Assembly (NCBI RefSeq): GCF_900115675.1
Contig: NZ_FOXI01000019.1
Location: 1-35,119, forward strand
DNA length: 35,119 bases
Direction of reading: 5' to 3'
DNA from: Halolamina pelagica
GTDB taxonomy: Archaea > Halobacteriota > Halobacteria > Halobacteriales > Haloferacaceae
A program made the translations under genes and the position numbers. The first letter of the stretch is position 1. Every line of letters starts with the position of its first letter. A model generated the notes under the pieces. It saw nothing but the letters and a program-made list of their open reading frames with translations, ran no database searches and had not been told where the DNA came from. This document shows positions 4,131-19,659 of this stretch, piece after piece.

Positions 4131-4683
4131 CGGCACCACCTTGGAGTTCCTCCAGTCGTTCTTCGAGCAACTCGGTCAGGTGCAGCGGGACCACGTCCTT
4201 GGCGTACTCGCGGTCGAGCGCCTCCTCGGCCTCTTCGACCATCGTCATGAGATCCCATACCGTCCGGCGCTTCTCGTTCTTCGCGCTCTCGAAGGCGGCT
4301 TCGTCCTCATACGCCATCGGCTCCTGGTTGGGGCCGATCTCCCAGTCGTCGTCGGCGTCAGCGGCTGACTCTACTTCCGATCCGGACTCCTCCGCAACGA
4401 CGGCACCACCGTCGGCGACGGCTGCGGTCTCGCTGGCGGGCGTGAATGCCACGTCGTCGACCGCATCGCGGTGGAGCGCCTGGCGGCAGAGGCGCAGCTT
4501 CCGGCGTGCTTCGTGACAGTCGAGGTCCTTCGCGACCTCGGTCCAGGCGTTCAGCCGATCGAGGTCTTCGATCCCACGGATGATCGGTGCGTAGTCCTCG
4601 AAGTCCGACCCAAGGAAGCGGGCTGCCTCCTGCTTCTCGTCGTTCTCGTACTCGGAGTAGTTCCGGGTGTTCGACGCCCGCAT
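4123..4683 (-). CDS. Hypothetical operon protein with acidic linker
   Basis: A 186-residue protein. The N-terminal about 75 residues look like a folded helical domain (FLGSDFEDYAPIIRGIEDL, then LNAWTEVAKDLDCHEARRK). A disordered alanine/glutamate/aspartate linker follows (about 80-115), and then a helical C-terminus (VWDLMTMVEEAEEALDREYAK; TELLEERLEEL). The start at 4683 shares one base with the stop of the upstream gene. I do not recognise the family. Confidence 0.8.
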   Translation of the reverse strand: MRASNTRNYSEYENDEKQEAARFLGSDFEDYAPIIRGIEDLDRLNAWTEVAKDLDCHEARRKLRLCRQALHRDAVDDVAFTPASETAAVADGGAVVAEESGSEVESAADADDDWEIGPNQEPMAYEDEAAFESAKNEKRRTVWDLMTMVEEAEEALDREYAKDVVPLHLTELLEERLEELQGGADE

Positions 4684-4943
4684 CAGTCCGCACCTCCGCC
4701 GATGTACTGACTGCACTCCTCGAACCCCCGACTCCAGCCGCGGGCGTGACCGGCTTCACGGCCATCGGGCAGTTCGGTCACGCGTTTCCCGCACTCGTTG
4801 CACTGTCGCTCCTCGGGCTTACTGGCAGTGACCACGCGGGCGGCCGCCCGGCGCTCGAGTTCCTCGCGCGTGATCCCCCAGTGGCGTTCGAACTCGCTTC
4901 GGGGCTCGGCGCCGTGATCGGTGAGCGTGCGCTGGGTGCTCAT
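4683..4943 (-). CDS. Small zinc-finger protein (CNECGKRVTEL)
   Basis: An 86-residue protein with a CxxC knuckle (QCNECGKRVTELPDG) near residues 47-55 and a further cysteine (FEECSQYIGG) near the end. The pattern, with histidine in AGHARGW between, could bind one zinc. The N-terminal half is a charged helix (FERHWGITREELERRAAAR). It overlaps both neighbours by 1-4 bp. Function unknown; it probably works with the other small zinc proteins of this operon. Confidence 0.78.
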   Translation of the reverse strand: MSTQRTLTDHGAEPRSEFERHWGITREELERRAAARVVTASKPEERQCNECGKRVTELPDGREAGHARGWSRGFEECSQYIGGGAD

Positions 4944-5194
4944 CGGAGACTCACCTCGTCGGGATCGGCGGCGGCAAGCTTCGCAGCCAGTGTCGAGCCC
5001 TGACCGCCGGCTTTCATGGCTTCGCCGGAGCAGTGCTTACAGCACTTTCGGTCGTCATCCAGACTTTCACGCGGGACGCGCTCGAACTCGTAGTTGTCCT
5101 TCTTGTCGAGGTTGCATTTGAGCGTCCCATCGTCCTCGAGTTCGTGGAGCCGGCCGCCGTAGCCGCCAGCGGCGATCGCGACGAAGTCAGTCAT
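4940..5194 (-). CDS. Small protein with Cys-rich knuckle (KCCKHC)
   Basis: An 84-residue protein. Residues 1-25 read VAIAAGGYGGRLHELEDDG, followed by a single cysteine (TLKCNLDKKDN) and a KCCKHCSGE cluster near residue 51, a likely zinc site. It overlaps the TFB-like gene by 8 bp and the next gene by 4 bp. I do not recognise a family. Confidence 0.75.
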   Translation of the reverse strand: MTDFVAIAAGGYGGRLHELEDDGTLKCNLDKKDNYEFERVPRESLDDDRKCCKHCSGEAMKAGGQGSTLAAKLAAADPDEVSLR

Positions 5195-5567
5195 CGGACT
5201 GACTCACCTCCGGGTGTGTCGGCGCGGAGCGGTCACCGGGTTCAGGGAACGTCCCCGCAGCCCGGCTCATTTCGAACCCTTCGGCGGCGCCGATTTCGGG
5301 GTAGCAGTCCCGGATGGCGACGGTGCTCACGTCGGCCACGTCGGCGATTTCCTGTTGCGTGAGTCGACCATCTCGAAGCAGCCCGGTGACGTACACTGCT
5401 GCGGCGGCGACCGTCGACGGCGCCTTGTTGATCGGGTGCTCGATCTCGGCGCGTTTCGCAAACGCGGTTGCCTGCGCTTCGAACGCGTCATCGAGGTCGT
5501 GATCCAGTTCGTCGATGATCTCGACCACCAGCCCCGGCGCGCGGATGAGGTCCTCGATCGAGGTCAT
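5187..5567 (-). CDS. Single-cyclin-repeat TFB-like protein
   Basis: A 126-residue protein. Residues about 48-92 (KAPSTVAAAAVYVTGLL then TQQEIADVADVSTVAIRDCY) match the last helices of a TFIIB/TFB cyclin repeat, where the same order P-x-x-x-AAAA-Y, T-Q-x-E-I-A and the helix-turn-helix VTxVTIRxRY contacts the BRE. Normal TFBs are about 300-320 residues, with an N-terminal zinc ribbon, B-finger and two cyclin repeats. Here only one repeat remains, preceded by one helical segment and followed by an acidic tail. It could compete with or retune host TFBs at element promoters. The ATG at 5567 overlaps the upstream stop by 4 bp; longer in-frame starts run into the preceding gene. Confidence 0.75.
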   Translation of the reverse strand: MTSIEDLIRAPGLVVEIIDELDHDLDDAFEAQATAFAKRAEIEHPINKAPSTVAAAAVYVTGLLRDGRLTQQEIADVADVSTVAIRDCYPEIGAAEGFEMSRAAGTFPEPGDRSAPTHPEVSQSDD

Positions 5568-5980
5568 GCCGTCACCCCCACGACGACGTTGATGATGGCG
5601 ACAAGCAGGCCAGCGATGGCGAGGCCGACACCGAACCACCGCGTCGGGAACTCACACGCGCGGGCGAATCGAGGATAGCTGATCGAGACCGCGCCGACAA
5701 CGGCCAGCATGGTGATCGCGGCCAGCGTGGGGTCGACGTGGAGCAGCTGGGCCATGATCGGGTTGGCTTCTGTCTGGGCGCCGACAGCCTGCGTAGCGTA
5801 GATCGTGCTCGCGGCGTCGGCGGCGCCGTGGGTGGCAAAGAGTGCGAGTCCCTGTTCCTGTTCGTGGTCAACGTCCTCGACGAGCTGCGTGGCGCGTGTC
5901 GAGGGGCCGGTGATGCACTGGGCGATCCGAGTCTGTCGTGAGGCGGTGGTTTTACCGCCGTTGGGTCCGTTAGCTTGCAT
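5564..5980 (-). CDS. DUF5658-like membrane protein, first gene of operon
   Basis: A 138-residue protein. A polar N-terminus of about 45 residues (with GGKTT, not a real P-loop) leads into two or three hydrophobic segments. The motif AASTIYATQAVGAQTEANPIM, broken here into AASTIYATQ and EANPIM, resembles DUF5658-type proteins, in which a D..ST pair and EANP mark the first loop. Two further membrane helices follow (PTLAAITMLAVVGAVSI; FGVGLAIAGLLVAIINVVVG). Starting at the ATG at 5980 removes about 40 upstream in-frame residues of basic, low-quality sequence. It heads the operon that runs to 3256, with a TATA-like box near 6102-6112. Role unknown. Confidence 0.78.
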   Translation of the reverse strand: MQANGPNGGKTTASRQTRIAQCITGPSTRATQLVEDVDHEQEQGLALFATHGAADAASTIYATQAVGAQTEANPIMAQLLHVDPTLAAITMLAVVGAVSISYPRFARACEFPTRWFGVGLAIAGLLVAIINVVVGVTA

Positions 5981-6101
5981 TGTCGTTCCTCTTAGCGACC
6001 CCACGAGGCGTCGGACGGGCCACAACCCGTGCGGCGCCGTTTTCGTGGGCGCCGAACTCCGCCTGTTAGGCGTCGCATACCCCGACCAATACTGTCCCCG
6101 C

Positions 6102-6112
6102 ACCATAAGTTT
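6102..6112 (-). promoter_or_regulatory. TATA-like box for the minus-strand operon
   Basis: On the minus strand AAAACTTATGG stands in an A/T-rich spot inside GC-rich surroundings. Transcription from here would give a leader of roughly 100 nt before the ATG at 5980. The leader contains an inverted element (GGCGCC...GGCGCC around 6032-6051). Confidence 0.4.
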
Positions 6113-6205
6113 TGTCACGATAGACGTACAACTAGGTGGATAAGGAGAGTATTGTGATCCTAGCTTGACAATCTGACAATTTCGGTGGGGATATGGTGGT
6201 GGCCG

Positions 6206-6463
6206 ATGGAAGATAACGATATGACTACCGCGGAGCGTGAGGAACTCATTCTGAGATTCATGGCTGAGCATGAACTCGCGCTCCCGCTGACGCCGATTTT
6301 CCAAAACCTCCGCCGCGAAGAGGGGATCACATTCAGTAAACGAACTGTGAAGCGCCGACTGGAGGCGCTCGAAGAAGACGGGTTCGTGCAGTGGCTCGAT
6401 ATTGGCCGGGGCTATTGGGAGATCACCGAGAAGGGAAAACAGCGAGTCGAGGAGGCCGACTGA
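6206..6463 (+). CDS. Winged-helix regulator (PhiH1/PadR-like)
   Basis: An 85-residue protein that is essentially one winged-helix domain: helix 1 LILRFMAEHELAL, helix 2 TPIFQNLRREEG, recognition helix SKRTVKRRLEALEEDG, and wing FVQWLDIGRGYWEITEKGKQRV. It probably represses or activates an early promoter of the element. Two ATGs are possible (6206, 6221); 6206 is used. It is divergent from the operon beginning at 5980 and convergent with the next winged-helix gene, so the two regulators face each other like a switch. Confidence 0.85.
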   Translation: MEDNDMTTAEREELILRFMAEHELALPLTPIFQNLRREEGITFSKRTVKRRLEALEEDGFVQWLDIGRGYWEITEKGKQRVEEAD

Positions 6464-6468
6464 CGCGT

Positions 6469-6717
6469 TTACCGCGGATCGTCGACAAGCGCATACACGC
6501 CCGTTCCGTGCAGGTTCTCGACGTGATTGTGTTCTCGAAGTCGTGTTAGACGCTGACTGACGTACTGCCTGCTGACTTCGCGCCCGCGTGCAGCGAGTTC
6601 CTCCCTCACCAGCTGCGGCGTTGCCCGCCCCTCGGACAGTACGCTGAGTATCTCTCGATCCGTGTCGTTTAGATCGTCGGCGACCAGTCCCATGCTGGTC
6701 TGAGGTGTCGCGGCCAT
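6469..6717 (-). CDS. Winged-helix regulator (phiH1 repressor-like)
   Basis: An 82-residue protein with a winged-helix core: NDTDREILSVLSEGRAT, PQLVREELAARGREVS, recognition helix RQYVSQRLTRLREHNHV, wing ENLHGTGVYALV. This layout matches small haloarchaeal phage and plasmid repressors of the phiH1 type. The start may be 6717 or the ATG at 6693. It is divergent from the operon led by the structured RNA, with repeated AGTTTACG sites in between that could be its operators. Confidence 0.86.
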   Translation of the reverse strand: MAATPQTSMGLVADDLNDTDREILSVLSEGRATPQLVREELAARGREVSRQYVSQRLTRLREHNHVENLHGTGVYALVDDPR

Positions 6718-6750
6718 TTCGATAAGAGCCTACTGCATCACGACAGTAGT

Positions 6751-6803
6751 AGTTTACGCCCGCAATCTTACAACCACAGTTTACGGTTAGCAAGTTTTTA
6801 GTA
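6751..6803 (+). promoter_or_regulatory. Divergent promoter region with repeated AGTTTACG sites
   Basis: AGTTTACG occurs at 6751-6758 and 6778-6785 in the same orientation, 27 bp apart, and TTTTTAGTA at 6795-6803 is a good TATA-like box for the plus strand. Counting about 25 bp on, transcription would begin near 6825, exactly where the structured leader begins. On the minus strand CGTAAACTACTAC (around 6746-6758) could serve the repressor gene at 6717. Confidence 0.55.
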
Positions 6804-6824
6804 GCCCTAGGTCGTTGTAACAGT

Positions 6825-6890
6825 TGAGAAAACCACGGGACGCCGGATGAATAGCCGGCCGGTGCTTGCGACACCGACCGTGGGTTCTCA
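6825..6890 (+). ncRNA. Three-way-junction RNA leader
   Basis: The 66-nt segment folds on paper into a closed three-way junction. The closing stem is TGAGAA (6825-6830) with TTCTCA (6885-6890), then a small AA/G internal loop, then CCACGG (6833-6838) with CCGTGG (6878-6883). Hairpin 2 is GCCGG (6842-6846) with CCGGC (6855-6859), 8-nt loop. Hairpin 3 is CGGTG (6860-6864) with CACCG (6872-6876), 7-nt loop CTTGCGA. All 22 pairs are Watson-Crick and the two hairpins abut. The predicted transcription start coincides with the first base, and the next gene starts 11 nt after the structure. It may be a cis-regulatory leader, an RNA stabiliser or a small RNA; it is not a tRNA. Confidence 0.68.
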
Positions 6891-6901
6891 GGAAGAAACC
6901 C

Positions 6902-7207
6902 ATGTCGACCAACGCTACGCGCCCAAATAAGGGCTCTGTCACTGAGCATAGCCACCGAACACTGCCGGCCTATGAATGGCTCGGCCGCGACCGCAACGAC
7001 AAGACCCACGTCCTCGACCGCAAGCGCGACGTGGTCCACCGCATCGACGTGCTCGCCGGTGAGCGCGTCGCGGTCTACGATCTCGACGCCGTCGATACGG
7101 ACTGCCGCGGCAACGCGATCGAGACCTACGTCGACTTCGTCGCCGACGGCGTCGGCTGGGTCGACCGCACGTTCCTCAACCGCGACCTGTTCGGGAGGGC
7201 GGTCTGA
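6902..7207 (+). CDS. Hypothetical protein after the structured leader
   Basis: A 101-residue protein with a charged, beta-rich centre (THVLDRKRDVVHRIDVLAGERVAVYDLDAV) and a C-terminal helix (WVDRTFLNRDLFGRAV). I do not recognise the family. The ATG at 6902 follows the three-way-junction RNA directly, so expression may be controlled by that structure. Its stop overlaps the next ATG by one base, opening a run of four coupled small genes. Confidence 0.8.
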   Translation: MSTNATRPNKGSVTEHSHRTLPAYEWLGRDRNDKTHVLDRKRDVVHRIDVLAGERVAVYDLDAVDTDCRGNAIETYVDFVADGVGWVDRTFLNRDLFGRAV

Positions 7208-7353
7208 TGGCCCGCCAGACCGTCCCGACCTACGAGCAGCGCGAGCGCCAGTATCGTGACGCCGACGCACTGGTGTACTGCCCGGACTGTGGGCGTTCGC
7301 ACGCGGCCACGCGCGAAGACGAGACCTACGAGAACGTATGTCCGAATCAGTAA
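7207..7353 (+). CDS. 48-residue zinc-finger protein
   Basis: A 48-residue protein with YCPDCGRSHA near residues 24-33 and a further cysteine close to the end (ENVCPNQ). This fits a small zinc-binding protein with three Cys and a His. It starts at the last base of the preceding stop and its end overlaps the next gene by 16 bp. Common in haloarchaeal mobile elements; function unknown. Confidence 0.7.
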   Translation: MARQTVPTYEQRERQYRDADALVYCPDCGRSHAATREDETYENVCPNQ

Positions 7354-7604
7354 CCCCCTGCCCGCGAACCACCCGCGAGCGCGCGCAGGTGGTGAAACGC
7401 GGGCTCGAGGCGATCGACGACGTGCTCGGCGCCGCTGTGCTCGACCCCAACGAGGGCCCCCGCGCGGAGTGGACGGTCGAGGCGACGATCACCGGCGACC
7501 GACTGCCGGCCGCGGCGGTGCAGATCCTCGCCGACCAGGACTGCGGTGTGGTCTCGACGACACTGCGCGCGCCGGATGTGACACAGGCGGTCGTGGCGGT
7601 CTGA
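7338..7604 (+). CDS. Small alpha/beta hypothetical protein
   Basis: An 88-residue protein. An N-terminal helix (RAQVVKRGLEAIDDVLG) is followed by strands and a second helix (WTVEATITGDRLPAAAVQILADQDCGVVSTT), giving a small beta-alpha-beta look. I do not recognise the family. It overlaps the upstream zinc-finger gene by 16 bp. Confidence 0.75.
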   Translation: MSESVTPCPRTTRERAQVVKRGLEAIDDVLGAAVLDPNEGPRAEWTVEATITGDRLPAAAVQILADQDCGVVSTTLRAPDVTQAVVAV

Positions 7605-7879
7605 CTAACCGACCCGTCTGCCGGCGCTGTTTTCTGCCGCCGGGCCGATCGAGTACACGACCGAAGCCCCGCGACCACGTACTGGCGTACAGTAACTCGA
7701 TCGCCGTTGGCACCATCGCGATCGTTGTCACCGGACTGGCGGGCGTGCTCGCTGACGCGGCCGGGTGGGACTGGTGGCGCGACTACTTCCTGCTCACGAG
7801 CATCACGATCACGATCGTGATGCTGGTGGCTGAACTCGTACTCACGGAGCTGGAGGCCGGCGCCGTGACCGGGCGGTGA
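7601..7879 (+). CDS. Two-helix membrane protein, start codon unclear
   Basis: The frame encodes two clear membrane segments (NSIAVGTIAIVVTGLAGVLA and YFLLTSITITIVMLVAELVL) after a basic stretch containing CRRC. No ATG, GTG or TTG occurs in this frame between the end of the upstream gene and the first membrane helix. A CTG at 7601 overlaps that stop; the first GTG (7745) would delete the first helix. I give the longest version, 92 residues. Either a rare start or translational coupling without a good start is used, or a base is missing. Confidence 0.55.
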   Translation: MTNRPVCRRCFLPPGRSSTRPKPRDHVLAYSNSIAVGTIAIVVTGLAGVLADAAGWDWWRDYFLLTSITITIVMLVAELVLTELEAGAVTGR

Positions 7880-7928
7880 GACGCTTCGCTCCCGAACGTT
7901 TTTGCCGCGCTGGCGCCGACATACGGGC

Positions 7929-8213
7929 ATGAGCACCGACACGCCGGAGGCCAACCATCCTCGTGAGGCCATCGAGAACATCTCGCTGACCCTCTCCGAG
8001 GACGGCGAGATCTGGGTGGCAAAAGACGAGGACACCGGCGTCGCGTCGCAGGGCGAAACCCGTGAGGAGGCGCTGGAGATGCTCGACGAGGCGGTGGCGC
8101 TGCACAAAGGCGAGATCGGCCACGAACCGACCGACGAGGAACTCCGAGAGCTGGGCATCGACCCGGCGAACAACGAAAGCGGGTCGTTGGAAGACTCGGA
8201 GATCTTCGAGTAA
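7929..8213 (+). CDS. hicB: HicB-like antitoxin
   Basis: A 94-residue protein. ISLTLSEDGEIWVAKDEDTG followed by SQGETREEALEMLDEAVAL is the signature of the HicB-like partial RNase H fold: strand, strand with the D-x-G-x-W/Y-V-A pattern, then a helix with G-x-T-x-E-E-A. The acidic C-terminal tail would bind the toxin. It is followed 2 bp later by a HicA-like gene. HicB usually precedes HicA in archaea, and it would autoregulate the pair; no separate DNA-binding domain is visible. Confidence 0.82.
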   Translation: MSTDTPEANHPREAIENISLTLSEDGEIWVAKDEDTGVASQGETREEALEMLDEAVALHKGEIGHEPTDEELRELGIDPANNESGSLEDSEIFE

Positions 8214-8215
8214 CG

Positions 8216-8470
8216 GTGGTCTCGCGAGATTTTTCGGGCGACGACGTGGTGACAGTCCTGTGTAACGTTGGCCCGTTCCACACTGAGAAGGTCACCGGCA
8301 GCCACGCGAAACTCCGGTATGATCCACCTGATCACCACAATACTGACCCGCGCGTGGTGACGGTCCCACGGAAAGACCGAATCCGGATTGGGACCCTGCG
8401 GAACATCGCCGAGCAAGCCGGCGCGAAGGACTTCGACGAATTCTGCGCCTGGATCGACCGGAACACCTAG
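8216..8470 (+). CDS. hicA: HicA-like mRNA interferase toxin
   Basis: An 84-residue protein with the double-stranded-RNA-binding-like HicA fold. FSGDDVVTVLCNVG is the first helix, TGSHAKLRY carries the GSH motif with the catalytic His, and VTVPRKDRIRIGTLRNIAEQAG corresponds to the VPxHxxLxxGTLRxIL segment (here the middle His is Lys or Arg). It begins with GTG just after hicB. A translation-inhibiting ribonuclease is expected. The pair may stabilise the element by post-segregational killing. Confidence 0.82.
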   Translation: MVSRDFSGDDVVTVLCNVGPFHTEKVTGSHAKLRYDPPDHHNTDPRVVTVPRKDRIRIGTLRNIAEQAGAKDFDEFCAWIDRNT

Positions 8471-8471
8471 C

Positions 8472-8765
8472 TTATTCGATCCGCTTGCGGACTTCTTCGA
8501 GTGTGTAGGTTTCCCCGTCCGGCTCCGACCCCAACTCCTCGGCAAGCTCGGGATCGAGTTGGGGGCCGAGTTTCGCCCACCAGTAGGTGTCGCCGTCGTC
8601 CTCTGCCCGCGCGAGCACATCCTCGCGCTCCAACTCAGCGAGGCGATCGACGACGGCTGCCTCGTCGGCGTCGAGCTCGGCGGCGACCACTTCGGCAGGC
8701 AGTGGTTCGTGCTCACCGAGTTTGTCGAATGCCAGCAGGATGGCCTGCGTTGAGAGGTCGGCCAT
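8472..8765 (-). CDS. Winged-helix-like small protein
   Basis: A 97-residue acidic protein. The first 60 residues look like a winged helix (STQAILLAFDKLGEHEPL, PAEVVAAELDADEAAVVDRLAELEREDVLARAEDDGDTYW). An acidic C-terminus follows (LDPELAEELG). The ATG at 8765 is chosen because the upstream extension lacks haloarchaeal composition. It converges with hicA (1 bp between the stops). Confidence 0.78.
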   Translation of the reverse strand: MADLSTQAILLAFDKLGEHEPLPAEVVAAELDADEAAVVDRLAELEREDVLARAEDDGDTYWWAKLGPQLDPELAEELGSEPDGETYTLEEVRKRIE

Positions 8766-8830
8766 ACCTGCCGGTAGGGCGCCGACCCACTTCGCCGTTG
8801 TGTCGACCCCGTCTGACCCATCGCGATCGT

Positions 8831-9156: not shown

Positions 9157-9167
9157 CCGTATAAGGC
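9157..9167 (-). promoter_or_regulatory. TATA-like box
   Basis: On the minus strand GCCTTATACGG lies about 25-30 bp upstream of the ATG at 9133, the spacing expected for a leaderless archaeal transcript. Confidence 0.55.
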
Positions 9168-9298
9168 CGAGAAGGGGGGTTACAGATGTCACACCCCTCC
9201 CTCGGGATTTAACAATGAGAACAGATAACCCAGCCGCTATATTCTTTACTTATAGACTTTACACATAGGCTAATCCTCCATTCAATACCCATTTGAAG

Positions 9299-9407
9299 AA
9301 CCTATGGGTAAAACCTATGTGATAAATATATAGTCACCACATATGTCCCAAACCTACAAGTGAAGGCGATACATCTGGGCTATACATATGGGGCAAACCT
9401 ATAGGTG
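9299..9407. repeat. Partition-operon repeats (candidate operator or parS)
   Basis: Two 23-bp direct repeats, 9340-9362 and 9385-9407, read CATATGnnnCAAACCTAnArGTG and are spaced 45 bp apart. A degenerate third copy lies at 9301-9321 (CCTATGGGTAAAACCTATGTG). ACCTATAGGT (9397-9406) is a perfect palindrome, and an inverted CACATAGGC occurs near 9261-9270. The last repeat covers the parA start codon and encodes its first residues. A TATA-like box (AAATATATAG, 9324-9333) sits among them. Such arrays beside ParA genes serve as autoregulatory operator, centromere, or both. Confidence 0.68.
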
Positions 9408-10248
9408 TAGCACATACCTGGACAAAGGTGGTACCGGCAAGACCACCTGCACGGCCCACCTCGGCGTTGCACTTCAGCAAGCATGCGACGAGGAAGTGCT
9501 GTTGATCGACCTCGCGGGAAAGCAGAGTGACCTCGCGAAGACGTTCGGCCTCTACGAGGAGGTGCAGGCCGACATCGAGAGCGAGGACGACTTCCCTAAC
9601 GTCGCAACGACGATGGAGGAGAACTGGACGAACGTCTCGGATCTTCTCGACGACCCGATCGACGAGCTGGTCTACGAGACTGACGAGGGCGTGGATCTGA
9701 TCCCGGCCCACCCCAGCCTCGACGCGCTCGACGCCGACCTCGGCAACGTCGACGACGCCCAAGAGCGGTACCACCGGCTCCGGGAGTTCCTCGACGACTA
9801 CGTCGACCCGCTGGACTACACGGTCGTGCTGCTCGATCTCCCGGGCGTCGCGAACAACGTCTCCTACAACGGGCTCTGGGCGACCGAATCCGTGGTCGCG
9901 CCGGTACAGATGGGCCCGCTGGAGTTCGAGCAGGCGCGTGGCCTCGAAAAGGACCTCGGCGGTATTCGTGACAGCTACGGCGTAGACGTGGCGCTAGAGA
10001 TGCTGCTGCCGAACCTCTACGACCGCCGGACGAATCTGGACGCCGAAGTCCACGAGCAGTTCCTGGAGGAGTTCGGCGACGTGGTCGGCCCGGAGAAGAT
10101 CGTCGCGAGCCAGGCCATCCGGAAGGCTACCAACGAGGGCCGGACGATCTTCACGCTCGATGAGGACGAACTGAGCAAGACCGCCCGCGAAGCGCGCGAA
10201 GCATTCGTGACCAACGCCGAGGAACTACTCACCCGACTCAACCAATGA
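9388..10248 (+). CDS. parA: ParA/MinD-family partition ATPase
   Basis: A 286-residue deviant Walker ATPase expected to segregate the replicon by patterning on the nucleoid. Walker A (DKGGTGKTT, residues 12-20) carries the signature lysine KGG. Walker A' is LLIDLAGKQSD (about 39-49), where the usual Asp-Pro-Gln is replaced by Ala-Gly-Lys-Gln. Walker B is VVLLDLPG (about 147-154). The C-terminal region has a long acidic helix. The start is the ATG at 9388, placed within the upstream repeat, so ParA or its partner may control its own translation and transcription. It overlaps the next gene by ATGA. Confidence 0.92.
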   Translation: MGQTYRCSTYLDKGGTGKTTCTAHLGVALQQACDEEVLLIDLAGKQSDLAKTFGLYEEVQADIESEDDFPNVATTMEENWTNVSDLLDDPIDELVYETDEGVDLIPAHPSLDALDADLGNVDDAQERYHRLREFLDDYVDPLDYTVVLLDLPGVANNVSYNGLWATESVVAPVQMGPLEFEQARGLEKDLGGIRDSYGVDVALEMLLPNLYDRRTNLDAEVHEQFLEEFGDVVGPEKIVASQAIRKATNEGRTIFTLDEDELSKTAREAREAFVTNAEELLTRLNQ

Positions 10249-10649
10249 GCAACGACGACGAACTCGAACAACTCCGACAGCAGAGTACCAGCGGCGGCGG
10301 CAACCGGATCGACGCCGACGCTGCGAAACAGAACAGCGCCGTCGACGACCTCGTGGACGCCCTGGAACGCATCGACGAGGGCGACAGTAGTGCGACCCTC
10401 TCGTTCTGGGGGAAGTCCGAGGCCGCGGCCGTCGACGTGCTGATGACCGACGACGAGCGCCGGACCGCGATGCTGGAGGCCTTTGCCGAGGAGTTGGGTG
10501 CCGAGGTGGATGTCGACGACGCGAGCCAGTCCGACCTCCTCAAACTCGCGATCCGGTACGCGATCGCCGACGTGGATCCGGAGCTGGTCGACGATCTTCG
10601 CGAGGCCCGCCGCGAACGAGCGATGGCCAAGGCGGACGAGGGGCTATGA
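10245..10649 (+). CDS. ParA partner protein (candidate ParB-like adaptor)
   Basis: A 134-residue acidic, helical protein that overlaps parA by 4 bp. The N-terminal 50 residues are low complexity and probably flexible (ELEQLRQQSTSGGGNRIDADA). The middle (FWGKSEAAAVDVLMTDDERRTAMLEAFAEELG) and C-terminus are helical. The position suggests the DNA-binding or adaptor partner of ParA. No classical ParB motif or ribbon-helix-helix signature is clear. Confidence 0.8.
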   Translation: MSNDDELEQLRQQSTSGGGNRIDADAAKQNSAVDDLVDALERIDEGDSSATLSFWGKSEAAAVDVLMTDDERRTAMLEAFAEELGAEVDVDDASQSDLLKLAIRYAIADVDPELVDDLREARRERAMAKADEGL

Positions 10650-13638: not shown

Positions 13639-13704
13639 ATGCCATCCTCAGATTACCCCAACCCCGAAGAAAACCGGCTGTACTCGGGTGAGAACCGTGC
13701 CTGA
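13639..13704 (+). CDS. 21-codon ORF ahead of integrase; may be its N-terminus
   Basis: ATG at 13639 follows an A/T-rich AATTATCAAGTAG at about 13599-13611 by the usual promoter distance. The peptide (MPSSDYPNPEENRLYSGENR then A, stop) ends inside the integrase frame. A +1 shift at the UGA would continue smoothly into EQIHWSRKSLDELED. So this may be the true N-terminus of the integrase, broken or translated by frameshift, rather than a separate gene. Confidence 0.45.
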   Translation: MPSSDYPNPEENRLYSGENRA

Positions 13705-14932
13705 GCAAATCCACTGGTCGCGGAAGTCGCTGGACGAACTCGAGGACTTCTACTGGACGGAGATCGCGACCGCTCGCGAGCGCGACGGCCACGATCCCGA
13801 GACGACGATCCCCACGCACGAGTGGCTCGTCGACGCCGGCTATAGCGGACTGGGGTATGCCCTCCGCGAACACCACAACACGACGCCCAAGCAGTTTTTC
13901 GAGGAGTACGTCGGCCTCGGCGTCGACGAACCCCACGGGTTCGAGTGGGGAATCGACCACTCCAGAACGGTCGAACTGCTGGAGAGCTATCTGCGGAGCA
14001 TCGAGCAGCGGGGCGACACCGTGGCGGCGTCGACGGCCGACACGCGGCGCTCACGGCTCGCGACGTGGGCGCGGACCTACGCTGAGGTGAACGACCGCCA
14101 CGACCTCGTGGGTGCGCTCACGGACGCCGACAGCCGTGCGCACGAGATCGACCGCTGCTGGGCGGCGTTGGACGTGCTGGATGATGAGCTCTCGACAGCA
14201 GGCTCGAAACTCGAGTACCTTCGTATCGCCCGGGACTGGTACGGCTACCTCGTCGACCGCGGGCGGGCGCAGTTCAACCCGCTTGCGACTGCCGCCGGTC
14301 AGTACGGGTGGGAGCGCGACGAACCGGACAATCCCGCCCTCGACGTGGCACAGGTTCGAGCGCTGCACCAGGCCGCCGACTCCCTCGACGACCGGCTCCT
14401 GGTCGTCGGCCTCGCCGGCTGGGGGCTCCGCCCATCAGAACTCGCGGCACTCCACGTCTCCCAGCTCCACCTCGACGCCGCGGATCCACACATCGAGTTC
14501 GTCGACGGTGAGCGAAAGAACGGGCCGGGGACGGTCGCGCTGCTGTTCGGACTCGATACACTCCGGGAGCGCATCGACGCGTTCGACGAGGACTGGAACG
14601 GCTACCTGTTTCCGTCGAACGCCGCAGCGTCGGGGCATATCGCCACGTCGACTGTCGCCCGCCGGTTCGACTCGCTCTGTGAGGAAGCCGGCGTAACGGT
14701 GCGTGGCGAGACGCCGACGCCGAAGTACGGGCGTCGGTTTTGGTACTCCACCTACTCGGAGGTCGTCGCTGATCTAGCCGAGCGGACGGCCGAGATCGCC
14801 GCCGATCAGGGGAGCGACGACCCGAAGACGGTGCTTCGGAACTACACGAGTGAGGAGAAGCGTCGCGAACTCCGGCGCGAGGAGATGCGAGAGCGACTGG
14901 CTACGGCGTTCGAGGTGGATGATGGAACTTGA
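13688..14932 (+). CDS. int: Tyrosine recombinase (integrase)
   Basis: A protein of 414 residues from GTG 13688 (or 411 from GTG 13697). An N-terminal domain of about 90 residues is followed by a core-binding helical domain (about 95-200). The catalytic domain carries Arg in GWGLRPSEL (about R248), Lys in GERKNG (K277), Arg in KYGRRFW (about R349-350, where the usual His is Tyr) and the nucleophile Tyr in VLRNYTS (Y386). It would integrate or excise the element, or act on the nearby palindromic sites. No ATG start is available except through the upstream 13639 ORF in another frame. Confidence 0.93.
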   Translation: MRTVPEQIHWSRKSLDELEDFYWTEIATARERDGHDPETTIPTHEWLVDAGYSGLGYALREHHNTTPKQFFEEYVGLGVDEPHGFEWGIDHSRTVELLESYLRSIEQRGDTVAASTADTRRSRLATWARTYAEVNDRHDLVGALTDADSRAHEIDRCWAALDVLDDELSTAGSKLEYLRIARDWYGYLVDRGRAQFNPLATAAGQYGWERDEPDNPALDVAQVRALHQAADSLDDRLLVVGLAGWGLRPSELAALHVSQLHLDAADPHIEFVDGERKNGPGTVALLFGLDTLRERIDAFDEDWNGYLFPSNAAASGHIATSTVARRFDSLCEEAGVTVRGETPTPKYGRRFWYSTYSEVVADLAERTAEIAADQGSDDPKTVLRNYTSEEKRRELRREEMRERLATAFEVDDGT

Positions 14933-15833: not shown

Positions 15834-15947
15834 ATGATGCAAACGTCGACACAACGGCAAACGAAGGAGTATCAGACGACCACTGGAATCGGGAAATCAA
15901 ATCAAGATAGTCTTCGAGACGGAGGTGATCAGAGTGCGGGTGGATGA
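15834..15947 (+). CDS. 37-residue leader ORF of the cassette
   Basis: ATG 15834 (or 15837) lies about 10 nt after the predicted transcription start and reads a polar peptide rich in Gln, Thr and Gly. Its last 14 bases overlap the start of the next gene at 15934. It could be a real small protein or a coupling leader peptide that brings ribosomes to the strong Shine-Dalgarno site. There is no other evidence. Confidence 0.38.
   Translation: MMQTSTQRQTKEYQTTTGIGKSNQDSLRDGGDQSAGG
15921..15930 (+). promoter_or_regulatory. Strong Shine-Dalgarno site deciding the first start
   Basis: GGAGGTGATC is a full-length match to the anti-Shine-Dalgarno end of archaeal 16S rRNA. With GTG at 15934 the spacing from GGAGGTG is 6 nt. 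This argues for 15934 rather than the in-frame GTG at 15925, which lies inside the site. Confidence 0.75.
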
Positions 15948-17652
15948 TGTCCTTTATGAGGCTGGTGAACCGGTTGACCCTGACCGAGCGAAAGAGCTGG
16001 CAGTAAACGAAGTACTCAAAAAACCGTTAACCGAACATCTAAACAACCAACAAAAGAAGTACCGGCAGATCGCTGTCGCTAGCGGAGTGTTGATTCTCGC
16101 TGGTGTCGGCGCTCTGGCTATAAATATCGATCCGTTGGTTGGTGGAGGCCTGTTGATTGCTGGTATCGTTGTCGCTGGTGGTGGGTACAGTTACGTGAAT
16201 CGGGAGGATCCTAATGTGACGATAACTGGTATCGAGAAAGGGTATTGGACAGGATACAGCCTTCCCACCGATGATGGGGTGATGGTCTATGACGCGATGG
16301 ATAATATAGACCAGACGGAGTTTGACCTCGAACAACTCTCGGATACAGAACCGGTCTCGTCCGCACGAGCAGATATCGAGAATTTGAGCGAATTCCCAGT
16401 CGTCATGCCACCGGGCGAGAATCCGGAGGCATCGTTCACAGGAACGCTCGAATCTGTCCGCGAGGAGATCGAAAACGCGGATCGACATACAGTGGAGGTA
16501 CCGCTCGTATCAACCGGAAGTCGCCAGGCCGAAGCCGTCGACTTCTTCGCATCCACAGCCACAGACGAGGCTGACCCCGTTTCGGTAGATGTTGAGATCA
16601 CGGACAACGAGGCTCAGGGAGATGTACAGTCGCTCGCTGAGTTAGAACGGATGGCTGCGAGTGATCACGGAGAGTCCGAACTAGAGGAGCTTTCGGAGAC
16701 AAGCCAAGAGTTGGCGAATGACCTTTCAGGTCTTCAAGAGACAGCGATTGACCTGTTGAACGAGCATGTCGGGGCTGCTGCAGACGCATTCGGATTGGTG
16801 AGCTACAACTTCTACTGTCCTGATTGCCAGATGGACGACATTGACTCGGAGCTCTCCCTTTCTAATCCACATGAAGGGACGTGGTACTGCGGTACTTGTC
16901 GGGAGTCGTTCGAGACTGAAGAAATTTTGCCGCGCCACCGCATCAAAGACGAGATCGTCAACCCAGTTTGGGACCAACTCTGGATCGAGAAGGACGACCA
17001 GCGACGAGAGATCTACGAGAACATCGAAGATCAACAGTCCGATCTACAGGAACGTGAGTTCGAGCAACGTAGTGAAGAAATCCGAACCGCAGCCGACCGC
17101 ATTCAGGAAATCCGATCTAAAATCCGCAACCTCAAGACGCAAGCCAAGGCCGCTCAAGGGAAAGTCGACGAGGTTGGTGATCTCATGGTCAAGTATGACC
17201 GAATCCATGAAGAGCGGAAGCGAGAATTCCAGCAGGAGGTCGAACAGTCTTTCGCCGAGATTGATGAGCGGACCGAGCGCGTGCTCGAGGAAACACGGAA
17301 TGAAGAACAAGAACGGATCGAGCAGGCTGAACAAGCGGCGAAAGAGAAGGCAGAGCTGATTCGAGAGGAGGAACGCCGACGGGAGGTCGCGAAGTTCATC
17401 GCTGAACAGCGAAGGGCTGACGCTCGCAATGAGGCGGCATTGGCACAACAGGCCGAGAGGAAACGCGCAGAGATGGGTCAGCGAGCAGAGTTCCACGACG
17501 AAGAGATGACCATGGAGCAGCGCCAACATCGAGAGAACTGGAATCTGAAGACGCGGGGGAAGACTTCGTTCTCCAGCCATATCAACCGATTCAAACAATG
17601 GAAAGATCGGACGTTGGGGGCGAGTGCTCACCAATCAGGAGGTGAACACTGA
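15934..17652 (+). CDS. Membrane zinc-ribbon long coiled-coil protein (cassette gene 1)
   Basis: A 572-residue protein of no family I recognise. Two adjacent membrane helices lie near residues 44-63 and 67-85 (IAVASGVLILAGVGALAI; GGGLLIAGIVVAGGGY). An acidic middle domain runs to about residue 280, and a zinc ribbon (YCPDC...WYCGTC) lies near residues 290-320. A coiled coil of about 180 residues rich in Glu, Arg and Gln follows (ERKREFQQEVEQSFAEIDER; REEERRREVAKFIAEQRRAD). The layout is that of a membrane-anchored scaffold with a cytoplasmic rod. The C-terminus reads SGGEH because the Shine-Dalgarno site of the next gene is encoded there. It shares one base with the next gene. GC is lower than in the rest of the element. 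Confidence 0.85.
   Translation: MRVDDVLYEAGEPVDPDRAKELAVNEVLKKPLTEHLNNQQKKYRQIAVASGVLILAGVGALAINIDPLVGGGLLIAGIVVAGGGYSYVNREDPNVTITGIEKGYWTGYSLPTDDGVMVYDAMDNIDQTEFDLEQLSDTEPVSSARADIENLSEFPVVMPPGENPEASFTGTLESVREEIENADRHTVEVPLVSTGSRQAEAVDFFASTATDEADPVSVDVEITDNEAQGDVQSLAELERMAASDHGESELEELSETSQELANDLSGLQETAIDLLNEHVGAAADAFGLVSYNFYCPDCQMDDIDSELSLSNPHEGTWYCGTCRESFETEEILPRHRIKDEIVNPVWDQLWIEKDDQRREIYENIEDQQSDLQEREFEQRSEEIRTAADRIQEIRSKIRNLKTQAKAAQGKVDEVGDLMVKYDRIHEERKREFQQEVEQSFAEIDERTERVLEETRNEEQERIEQAEQAAKEKAELIREEERRREVAKFIAEQRRADARNEAALAQQAERKRAEMGQRAEFHDEEMTMEQRQHRENWNLKTRGKTSFSSHINRFKQWKDRTLGASAHQSGGEH
17638..17645 (+). promoter_or_regulatory. Shine-Dalgarno site of cassette gene 2
   Basis: GGAGGTGA, 6 nt before ATG 17652, inside the end of gene 1 (encoding part of GGEH). 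It is nearly identical to the gene 2-gene 3 junction. Confidence 0.75.
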
Positions 17653-18602
17653 TGGCCAGTGAAGACCTTCACAAGCCGCTCAAAGCGATCAATCAAAGCA
17701 TCTCGGATCTGCGTGAGGATATAATTTCGCTCAAAGGAGAGGTAGAGAAGATCCACACAGTCATTCGGCAAGCGGCCGAGACCATCCGGGAGGCCATTCA
17801 GGAGAATATTCGTGCACAGGCAGAGCTGAAACTGATGGATCATATCATGGAGGTTCGGACGGTCAAACCCCAGATAAATGCCGAATACGAGCAAATAGAG
17901 ACTGAGCGAAGTGAACTCCAAGAGCGCCTCACGAGTATTGAGGAGCGATACCAGCGCAAACACGAAGAACTCAATGAGAAAGCGAAGGACCGAATTCGGA
18001 ATCTGGGCTCACATATTTTCGAAATCGATGAAGAGCAGTTTGAATCGGGGATTGAGGATCCGTTCACGAGTCAGGTAACGACGACATGGCAATTCCTTCA
18101 GGCGCATAACGAGGACGTACGAACGGAACGAACCGGAGAGGTTCAGGGTACAACTGAGGAGGTCGTCCAGACTATCGACGACTTTGTGCATCGTCAGGAT
18201 GAATTGATCGAAACTATCGACGACCACCGCTTCGACGCAGCTGAAGTCCCACTCCCGGACGATCATCCAGAACGGTTACAGGTACCCTACTATATTGTCG
18301 AATACGAGTCAGATGGCTTCTCCCAACGTCGACTCGTCGTCCCTTCGGAACTCTCGACAGAGAATGGGACGACATGGTGTTCAATATCCCTCTCGCCGAT
18401 TTCGGGGTCGGGAGAGCTCCTCAGTGGTGTTTCAGGCGTTGACAACCCCGAGACTATCGGGTCGATTTCCGCTGATCAACTCGCGTCGACGCTCGGTGAA
18501 TACGGTAAGGAGTCATGGGTCACGTCGTACAGCGACGCTGTGACAGATGCCGTCCCCGAGGATGGCACAATTCCGGTCCGAGCCCCGGGAGGTGAAGACT
18601 GA
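17652..18602 (+). CDS. Coiled-coil protein with C-terminal domain (cassette gene 2)
   Basis: A 316-residue protein. Residues 1-140 are coiled coil (INQSISDLREDIISLKGEVEK; YEQIETERSELQERLTSIEE). A helical middle is followed by a beta-rich C-terminal domain (about 210-300: VPYYIVEYESDGFSQRRLVV, TWCSISLSPISGSG). I do not recognise the family. It is translationally coupled to both neighbours and ends with PGGED, again because the next ribosome site is encoded there. It probably binds the coiled coil of gene 1. Confidence 0.84.
   Translation: MASEDLHKPLKAINQSISDLREDIISLKGEVEKIHTVIRQAAETIREAIQENIRAQAELKLMDHIMEVRTVKPQINAEYEQIETERSELQERLTSIEERYQRKHEELNEKAKDRIRNLGSHIFEIDEEQFESGIEDPFTSQVTTTWQFLQAHNEDVRTERTGEVQGTTEEVVQTIDDFVHRQDELIETIDDHRFDAAEVPLPDDHPERLQVPYYIVEYESDGFSQRRLVVPSELSTENGTTWCSISLSPISGSGELLSGVSGVDNPETIGSISADQLASTLGEYGKESWVTSYSDAVTDAVPEDGTIPVRAPGGED
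18588..18595 (+). promoter_or_regulatory. Shine-Dalgarno site of cassette gene 3
   Basis: GGAGGTGA, 6 nt before ATG 18602. The junction GGAGGTGAAGACTGATGGC differs from the gene 1-gene 2 junction by only one base, so the two intergenic joints are copies or under the same constraint. Confidence 0.75.
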
Positions 18603-19411
18603 TGGCGCATCTTGAACAGACACGGGCCGTCGTCGAAGCTGACGAAAAGTTCGACGGGAAGATTATCCCGACAGAGAGGGCGGAACTCGACCGCCCAGTT
18701 CGTCTCCAAGATGGAGCAACAGTACAGGGTAGCATCTACGGAGAAACTATCGATATGGCTCCGAATTCCTCTGTCGAAGGATCTGTGATGGCCAGTGGTG
18801 GCGTTGAGTTAGACGGTAGCCATATCCACGGCGAAGTTGGGACACCTGGCAAGGTTATCGCTGAGGACGCTCGGATCGACGGAACTGTCACAGGAAAGCG
18901 AGTGACGCTCAGCAACTGTGTCGTGCGAGGCAACGTCGTTGGAACAGAGGTGATACTGGAAAACTGTACAGTCCTTGGCATCGCCACTGCTGACCGCCGG
19001 TTGGACCTCACGGACTCGCTCTGTTACACGTTCCGGGGTCACAATGAGACGGTCCTCGACGAAGTTACAGTAATTCTCCCTCAGGCGATTGCTGACGGAG
19101 GACTCACGCTCGAGACGCCTGTAACTGTAGCTGGACTCGGATCACTCGACGTAGATACTGAATCCGATGACGAAGATGAGAAACACCCTGAACTGACTCA
19201 ATCAGATCTCTATACACACGAAGGAACGACCTATCTCACTCTGTCTCCCCGAATCCTGAACCTCGAAAAAGTGAACGATCGATTAGAGGAGCTCGAACAA
19301 GGCGTGCTAGCTGCTGTCGACGACAGCACTGGTGACACGATGGAGATGAGCATCGAGGATGTCCTGGATCTATTGGACGTCGACGCAAATAGGGCTCCAC
19401 TTACAGAATAA
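18602..19411 (+). CDS. Bactofilin-like beta-helix protein (cassette gene 3)
   Basis: A 269-residue protein. Residues about 30-150 form a series of short repeats of the type G-x-V-x-G-x-V (VQGSIYGETIDMAPNSSVEG; DGSHIHGEVGTPGKVIAEDA; RIDGTVTGKRVTLSNCVVRG). These are typical of right-handed beta-helix polymers of the bactofilin/polymer-forming cytoskeletal family. A beta-rich middle and a helical C-terminus follow (RILNLEKVNDRLEELEQGVL; MSIEDVLDLLDV). Bactofilins form filaments on membranes without nucleotide. Here it is longer than the usual 120-180 residues because of the extra C-terminal domain, which may bind the coiled-coil partners. Confidence 0.75.
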   Translation: MAHLEQTRAVVEADEKFDGKIIPTERAELDRPVRLQDGATVQGSIYGETIDMAPNSSVEGSVMASGGVELDGSHIHGEVGTPGKVIAEDARIDGTVTGKRVTLSNCVVRGNVVGTEVILENCTVLGIATADRRLDLTDSLCYTFRGHNETVLDEVTVILPQAIADGGLTLETPVTVAGLGSLDVDTESDDEDEKHPELTQSDLYTHEGTTYLTLSPRILNLEKVNDRLEELEQGVLAAVDDSTGDTMEMSIEDVLDLLDVDANRAPLTE

Positions 19412-19413
19412 GG

Positions 19414-19659
19414 ATGATCGGACTCAGTGTTGGAGCGCTCGTCCTCGGAGGACTCATTACTGCCTGGTTCGCCCTTTGGATATGGCGAATCATTGGTGCG
19501 GCCGCTAGTGTTGAGACTCTCGGAATCGGAGTGGTTGTCGTCATTGCGGTCGCCGCACTTTACGGTGCTCTTCCACCGCTGTTCGGGTTCATGACCACGG
19601 GAGCACCCGTTATCGTAGCGGGCATCCTCAGCTTTGTTCTTTTGCGTGTACTTTTCTAA
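19414..19659 (+). CDS. Small membrane protein (cassette gene 4)
   Basis: An 81-residue hydrophobic protein with two or three membrane helices (IGLSVGALVLGGLITAWFAL; LGIGVVVVIAVAALYGALPP; GAPVIVAGILSFVLLRVLF). It starts 2 bp after the gene 3 stop. It probably anchors the complex. It ends the cassette, as downstream sequence lacks an open frame in phase. Confidence 0.78.
   Translation: MIGLSVGALVLGGLITAWFALWIWRIIGAAASVETLGIGVVVVIAVAALYGALPPLFGFMTTGAPVIVAGILSFVLLRVLF

Follow-up and report, generated by a model that had tools for sequence, protein, structure and literature searches.

A bactofilin-like beta-helix gene and two coupled partner genes recur as one cassette in haloarchaea

The window analysed here is the whole 35,119-bp contig NZ_FOXI01000019.1 of a 3.16-Mb haloarchaeal assembly (Halolamina pelagica), and the element under study is a cassette of four open frames on its + strand, designated G1 to G4, the third of which encodes a bactofilin-like beta-helix protein. 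All parts of the cassette described below lie on this strand. G1 (572 amino acids, aa; 15934..17652) has a GTG start just behind the Shine-Dalgarno sequence GGAGGTGATC, which was read directly in the sequence at 15921..15930. G2 (316 aa) and G3 (269 aa) follow at 17652..18602 and 18602..19411, and G4 at 19414..19659 encodes a small membrane protein of 81 aa with about three spans. Stop and start codons overlap (TGATG) where G1 meets G2 and again where G2 meets G3, an arrangement kept in most of 15 compared loci and replaced by short gaps in the remainder. The original prediction, made from the sequence alone, had let the first gene begin at 15834; the ATG at that position lies in another frame and opens an open reading frame (ORF) of 36 codons (15834-15947), conceivably a leader peptide, that ends within the start region of G1.

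The distribution of these genes was followed in 392 genomes of the order, the window's own included, and in an additional phylum-wide search. Orthologs of G3 with about 42-65% identity were present in 15 of the 392 genomes (about 4%, counting the window's own), and the profiles of both G1 and G2 matched exactly the same 15. No solo copy of G1 or of G2 was found among the 392 genomes, and in every complete locus the three genes are direct neighbours in an unchanged order. The refuting condition set in the original prediction, that homologues never occur together elsewhere, therefore does not apply. Such identical distribution is co-occurrence far beyond chance, and we are highly confident that the real unit is G1-G2-G3. 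One genome of another class, detected in the phylum-wide search, has all three genes in this order, with identities of about 33-38%. Named carriers are Natronorubrum thiooxidans, Halorientalis regularis, Halorhabdus amylolytica, Halonotius aquaticus, Halorubellus salinus and Halorarius halobius; the locus of the latter is an additional, seventeenth one, and counts of partner genes given below refer to these 17 loci.

Trees of G1, G2 and G3 have 8-10 of 12 splits in common and are without conflict at support ≥95. They do not track the host families, as exemplified by family f7 grouping with f10 at support 100. Concordant trees that depart from those of the hosts indicate that the module has been inherited and horizontally transferred as one unit. 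The cassette is under purifying selection, with nonsynonymous divergence (dN) of about 0.13-0.28 and synonymous divergence (dS) of about 0.8-2.4 in three closer ortholog pairs.

The G3 protein of the window matches the Pfam bactofilin family PF04519 with an E-value of 2e-5 (25.2 bits). PF04519 was matched by 14 of 15 G3 orthologs at E≤0.01, and in a six-frame search the orthologs of genomes G168 and G137 exceeded the family cut-off. The AlphaFold2 (AF2) model of G3, built from 7 sequences, had a mean predicted local distance difference test (pLDDT) of 78.7 and a predicted template modelling score (pTM) of 0.76. The bactofilin-like beta-helix that had been read from the sequence is predicted at residues ~33-176 (18698..19129), where the block pLDDT of the strands is mostly 85-97. 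The claim of an extra C-terminal domain likewise found support in the model, which places an alpha/beta part behind the beta-helix; this part has a strand pair and a helix at residues 203-257 (19208..19372), with the motif TYLTLxPRILNLE. The alignment also displays a hydrophobic period of about 5.7 residues, which amounts to roughly 17 residues for each turn of three strands (lags 6, 11 and 17). In VIA-align the model superimposed on right-handed parallel beta-helices with Z ~10-14 and a root-mean-square deviation (rmsd) of ~3-5 Å, compared with an rmsd of ~11 Å for the left-handed LpxD. A right-handed beta-helix is thus the confident prediction for the core of G3.

The 15 aligned N-termini of G3 share the pattern MAxIExTRAVVE. 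Comparison by hhalign with a common haloarchaeal two-beta-helix family gave a probability of 88%, which is suggestive only, given 50% for the reversed decoy; HalA and HalB were not recognised among these haloarchaeal proteins. Two further proteins of the bactofilin family are encoded in the window's own genome. Genome G023 (contig C1:334145-334381) harbours a 145-aa frame that resembles only the C-terminal residues 188-266 of G3, at 35% identity, and the C-terminal part may therefore exist as a separate domain.

Along G1, a membrane hairpin is followed by a middle region, a zinc ribbon, a very long helix and a C-terminal motif, in agreement with the earlier description of a membrane-anchored protein with a zinc ribbon and a long coiled coil. 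Hydropathy of the window protein and its orthologs locates a double membrane span to residues 46-83 (16069..16182), and a low-confidence model has helices 16-62 and 67-90 in this region. The zinc ribbon C295-P-D-C298...C319-x-x-C322 (CPxC...CxxC, 16816..16899) has all four cysteines invariant across 14 orthologs, and the stretch that comes after them, PRHRIKDDIVNPVWDQLWIEKDDQRREIY, is highly conserved. The long helical region at residues 339-539 (16948..17550) is predicted by AF2 as helices 339-406 and 412-539, with pLDDT ~82-84 over 440-510, and shows a heptad-like periodicity of 3.5 residues. The C-terminal motif reads TRGxTSFS..IN.

G2 appears from its sequence to be a soluble helical or coiled-coil rod (~1-195) joined to a C-terminal domain (~205-316). 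Its N-terminal half is heptad-like and hydropathy revealed no membrane span. The proposal of a second rod, coupled to G1 and G3, is supported. The C-terminal domain had no clear Pfam or PDB match, and G1 and G2 are protein families without a curated name. Matches of G1 and G2 to SLATT_5, DUF3053, LmuB, LeoB, JetC, SMC and Rad50 were set aside as weak coiled-coil resemblance. The match of the G1 profile to PDB 7rdr (E 9.7e-12) was taken as an effect of low-complexity helix, no stretch passing alone.

The membrane genes beside the core are variable. The original prediction had counted four tightly coupled genes, and this holds for G1-G2-G3; G4, however, occurs in 3 of 17 loci, its sole orthologs being those of L035/L047 (Natronorubrum thiooxidans) and L038, and is an optional partner outside the core. 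A different gene adjoins the core in 10 of the 17 loci and encodes a membrane protein whose N-terminal hydrophobic helix and additional spans are accompanied by an acidic linker and, at the C-terminus, HEAT repeats. At E≤1e-12 its profile matched 9 of the 392 genomes, and since all of these are cassette carriers in which the gene is always adjacent, the HEAT-repeat protein is considered a genuine component. G4 and the HEAT-repeat protein were never found in the same locus, although the loci are few and constitute weak evidence for exclusivity. Halonotius aquaticus (L042) encodes two different HEAT-repeat membrane proteins, at 4434-5528 and 9157-10416, one on either side of the cassette.

A Ser/Thr kinase gene adjoins the cassette in genomes G271, G109 and G168 and, independently, in G409, which holds the deepest locus and in which the adjoining kinase is the sole kinase match of the genome (E≤1e-20). 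Upstream of the kinase-linked cassette in G109 (L073:4500-10031) lie genes for a 318-aa zinc-ribbon protein, a protein of 587 aa with multiple zinc ribbons that weakly matches SPFH/Band-7, and an IetA-like AAA ATPase. In genome G051, contig C1 at about 1466-1498 kb (L099, L105 and L070) carries a cluster of Ser/Thr kinase genes, some of them broken, which includes a remnant of the N-terminal part of G1 that is interrupted by stops.

The remainder of the contig contains orc1/cdc6, parA, integrase and HerA-like ATPase genes. The integrase upstream of the cassette (13688-14932, 414 aa) is a full-length frame and not one of the relics that had been reported there. A 34-bp inverted repeat (88%) within 2125-2343 lies beside the orc1/cdc6 gene (751-2049), and the two likely mark a replication origin; the contig is probably a replicon of its own or an integrated one. 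Its end (1-336) is 85-93% identical to sequence in haloarchaeal plasmids of several genera, so that the contig probably breaks at a repeated element. The frame of 1085 aa at 5564-8821 has a marginal C-terminal DUF5658 match as its sole similarity. Carriage as cargo, as originally proposed, thus fits the gene content of this contig but not most other carriers, in which the cassette resides on large, often chromosome-sized contigs. The low GC content noted for the cassette holds here (53.5% against 61.9% for the remaining contig), but orthologous cassettes often have a host-like GC content close to that of their surroundings.

We propose that the three core proteins form one membrane-tethered, bactofilin-like scaffold, a proposal for which we hold belief and doubt to be evenly balanced. 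G3 would assemble, by end-to-end stacking of its beta-helices, into a filament that requires no nucleotide, and G1 would anchor this filament to the inner face of the membrane by its N-terminal membrane hairpin. In G1, the zinc ribbon could be a node for folding or docking and the long helix could extend along or away from the membrane, with G2, by means of its rod and C-terminal domain, bridging or spacing G1 and G3. Translational coupling may keep the three proteins in balanced amounts. The role of the scaffold would be to position or restrain a lineage-specific membrane partner, G4 here and the HEAT-repeat protein elsewhere, acting as client or effector, and in some lineages the Ser/Thr kinase may regulate it. 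The outcome would be a changed shape or domain organisation of the local membrane or envelope. The filament, anchor and bridge roles of G3, G1 and G2 are assigned by analogy with published bactofilins and LmdC. Polymerisation, a physical complex and its topology, kinase control and a physiological role in cell shape or as a membrane scaffold are inferred.

Several observations weigh against this proposal. The score of the window's G3 lies under the Pfam gathering score for bactofilins (25.2 against 27.9 bits). Its beta-helix spans ~145 residues or more, as compared to a bactofilin domain of ~110 residues, and by inspection its N-terminus, MAHLEQTRAVVE, is unlike the amphipathic membrane-targeting peptide of bactofilins. 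For these three reasons G3 is not classified as a strict bactofilin. Foldseek searches with the G3 model returned no solved structure at E≤0.001, and the overall model of G1 is poor (pTM 0.20). There were no bactofilins in the top rows of Foldseek or in the VIA list, an absence that excludes nothing. Moreover, about 96% of the genomes lack the cassette, and it is decaying in two: in G043, which is not among the 15 carriers, it is reduced to a 3' remnant of G3, and in G051 a transposase has inserted into G1, whose frame is also broken, G2 and G3 still being open. Taken together, the absence and the decay imply that the cassette is not needed for basic cell shape.

The strongest rival is a kinase-linked membrane complex for signalling or stress, in which G3 would act as an adaptor without polymerising, G1 would be a rod-shaped membrane sensor, and either G4 or the HEAT-repeat protein would provide the output. 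The kinase genes beside four cassettes, the deepest locus among them, are in favour of such a complex, as are the nature of HEAT repeats as adaptor modules and the constancy of the core while the optional parts vary. No such kinase was seen in the examined flanks of the other loci, however, and among the recognisable similarities of G3 that to the polymer-forming bactofilins is the strongest. We rate signalling as rather unlikely.

Less probable still is anti-virus defence, a role raised in the original prediction for which the analysis gave no support. The scaffold would in this case sense infection, and an exchangeable membrane protein, either G4 or the HEAT-repeat protein, would damage the membrane. 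The patchy distribution, the transfer as a unit, the swapped membrane genes and the decay in some genomes would all suit a defence system, as would the mobile-type contig that carries the cassette here. PADLOC returned nothing specific: the matches of G1 and G2 (~21-23 bits) are coiled-coil noise and G3 and G4 had none. The neighbours examined are mostly ordinary genes (mutS, superoxide dismutase, UDP-sugar dehydrogenase, transporters), and a scan of 125 of them disclosed no defence island. Among these neighbours, matches to mad2/mad3 (MADS) were discarded as unspecific since the models match all 14 control genomes, dozens of times per genome, and kinase matches to PD-T4-6/mad6 reflect generic protein-kinase similarity. 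Nuclease, NADase and nucleotide-signal domains were not found in G1-G4. Finally, it is very improbable that the scaffold anchors a replicon or its transfer machinery at the membrane for the stability or transfer of a mobile contig, for although this contig has genes for orc1/cdc6, parA, an integrase and a HerA-like ATPase and bactofilins can organise ParABS in Myxococcus (PMC5703909), the cassette elsewhere is on large contigs near mutS, superoxide dismutase or UDP-sugar dehydrogenase and no record in plasmid, phage and viral collections holds G3.

The proposal of a bactofilin-like scaffold, which we prefer to these rivals, may be taken one step further. As a possibility that we advance tentatively, the cassette could be a mobile cytoskeleton kit, consisting of filament, anchor, spacer, exchangeable membrane effector and sometimes a kinase, that is gained horizontally and provides a new, regulated membrane structure of morphogenetic or infection-protective use. 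The one-to-one tie of G1 and G2 to the bactofilin-like protein in different lineages suggests that modules of the cytoskeleton may be accessory traits exchanged by horizontal transfer. With only three genes, and with cultivated species among its carriers, the unit is open to direct testing.

As anticipated, no description of the gene set G1-G2-G3 was encountered in the literature searched, which did not include the original halofilin paper (Curtis et al. 2024). Known systems resemble the cassette in part. Flotillin/SPFH scaffold proteins share with G1 a membrane hairpin that is followed by a long coiled coil, but 14 G1 orthologs gave no SPFH/Band-7 match at E≤0.5 and have a zinc ribbon instead. 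The BacA-LmdC module, composed of a bactofilin and an M23 endopeptidase (PMC10945521), has two overlapping genes, one for a bactofilin and the other for a coiled-coil protein anchored in the membrane; LmdC is a single-span coiled-coil membrane protein and one of the coupled operon partners of bactofilins (PMC12448750, PMC10945521). In contrast, no M23 or other peptidase domain was found in G1 or G2, and G1 combines its zinc ribbon with a very long helix. Haloarchaea are without peptidoglycan. The halofilins, haloarchaeal bactofilin families linked to curvature-dependent morphogenesis, are similar in that G3 is also a bactofilin-related protein of haloarchaea; the portion of the account covered here (PMC12186497) makes no mention of partners such as G1 and G2, and HalA and HalB are compared by description only. 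Most carrier genomes examined encode other bactofilin-family proteins above the cut-off, and G3 hence looks like an addition.

Published bactofilins (PF04519; BacA, BacM, CcmA, TtBac) are nucleotide-independent polymers that bind membranes and recruit membrane clients (PMC12448750). They consist of a single domain of ~110 residues with unstructured tails, and the N-terminal amphipathic membrane-targeting peptide of BacA has been suggested to be broadly conserved (PMC12448750). The predicted right-handed beta-helix and PF04519 match of G3 resemble them, as do the membrane link of the cassette and its operon with a coiled-coil membrane protein. G3 differs in its sub-threshold score, its longer beta-helix, the lack of an evident membrane-targeting peptide and an extra C-terminal alpha/beta part where bactofilins have a disordered tail. 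The cassette further differs by adding two novel partner families, G1 and G2, which are tied one-to-one to G3 in several families of haloarchaea and in a further class of the phylum. They would define obligate partners of an archaeal bactofilin-like filament, of which we found no report. The cassette is best read as encoding a probable scaffold of bactofilin-like type, in which two new families of obligate partners are combined with a membrane component that can be exchanged.

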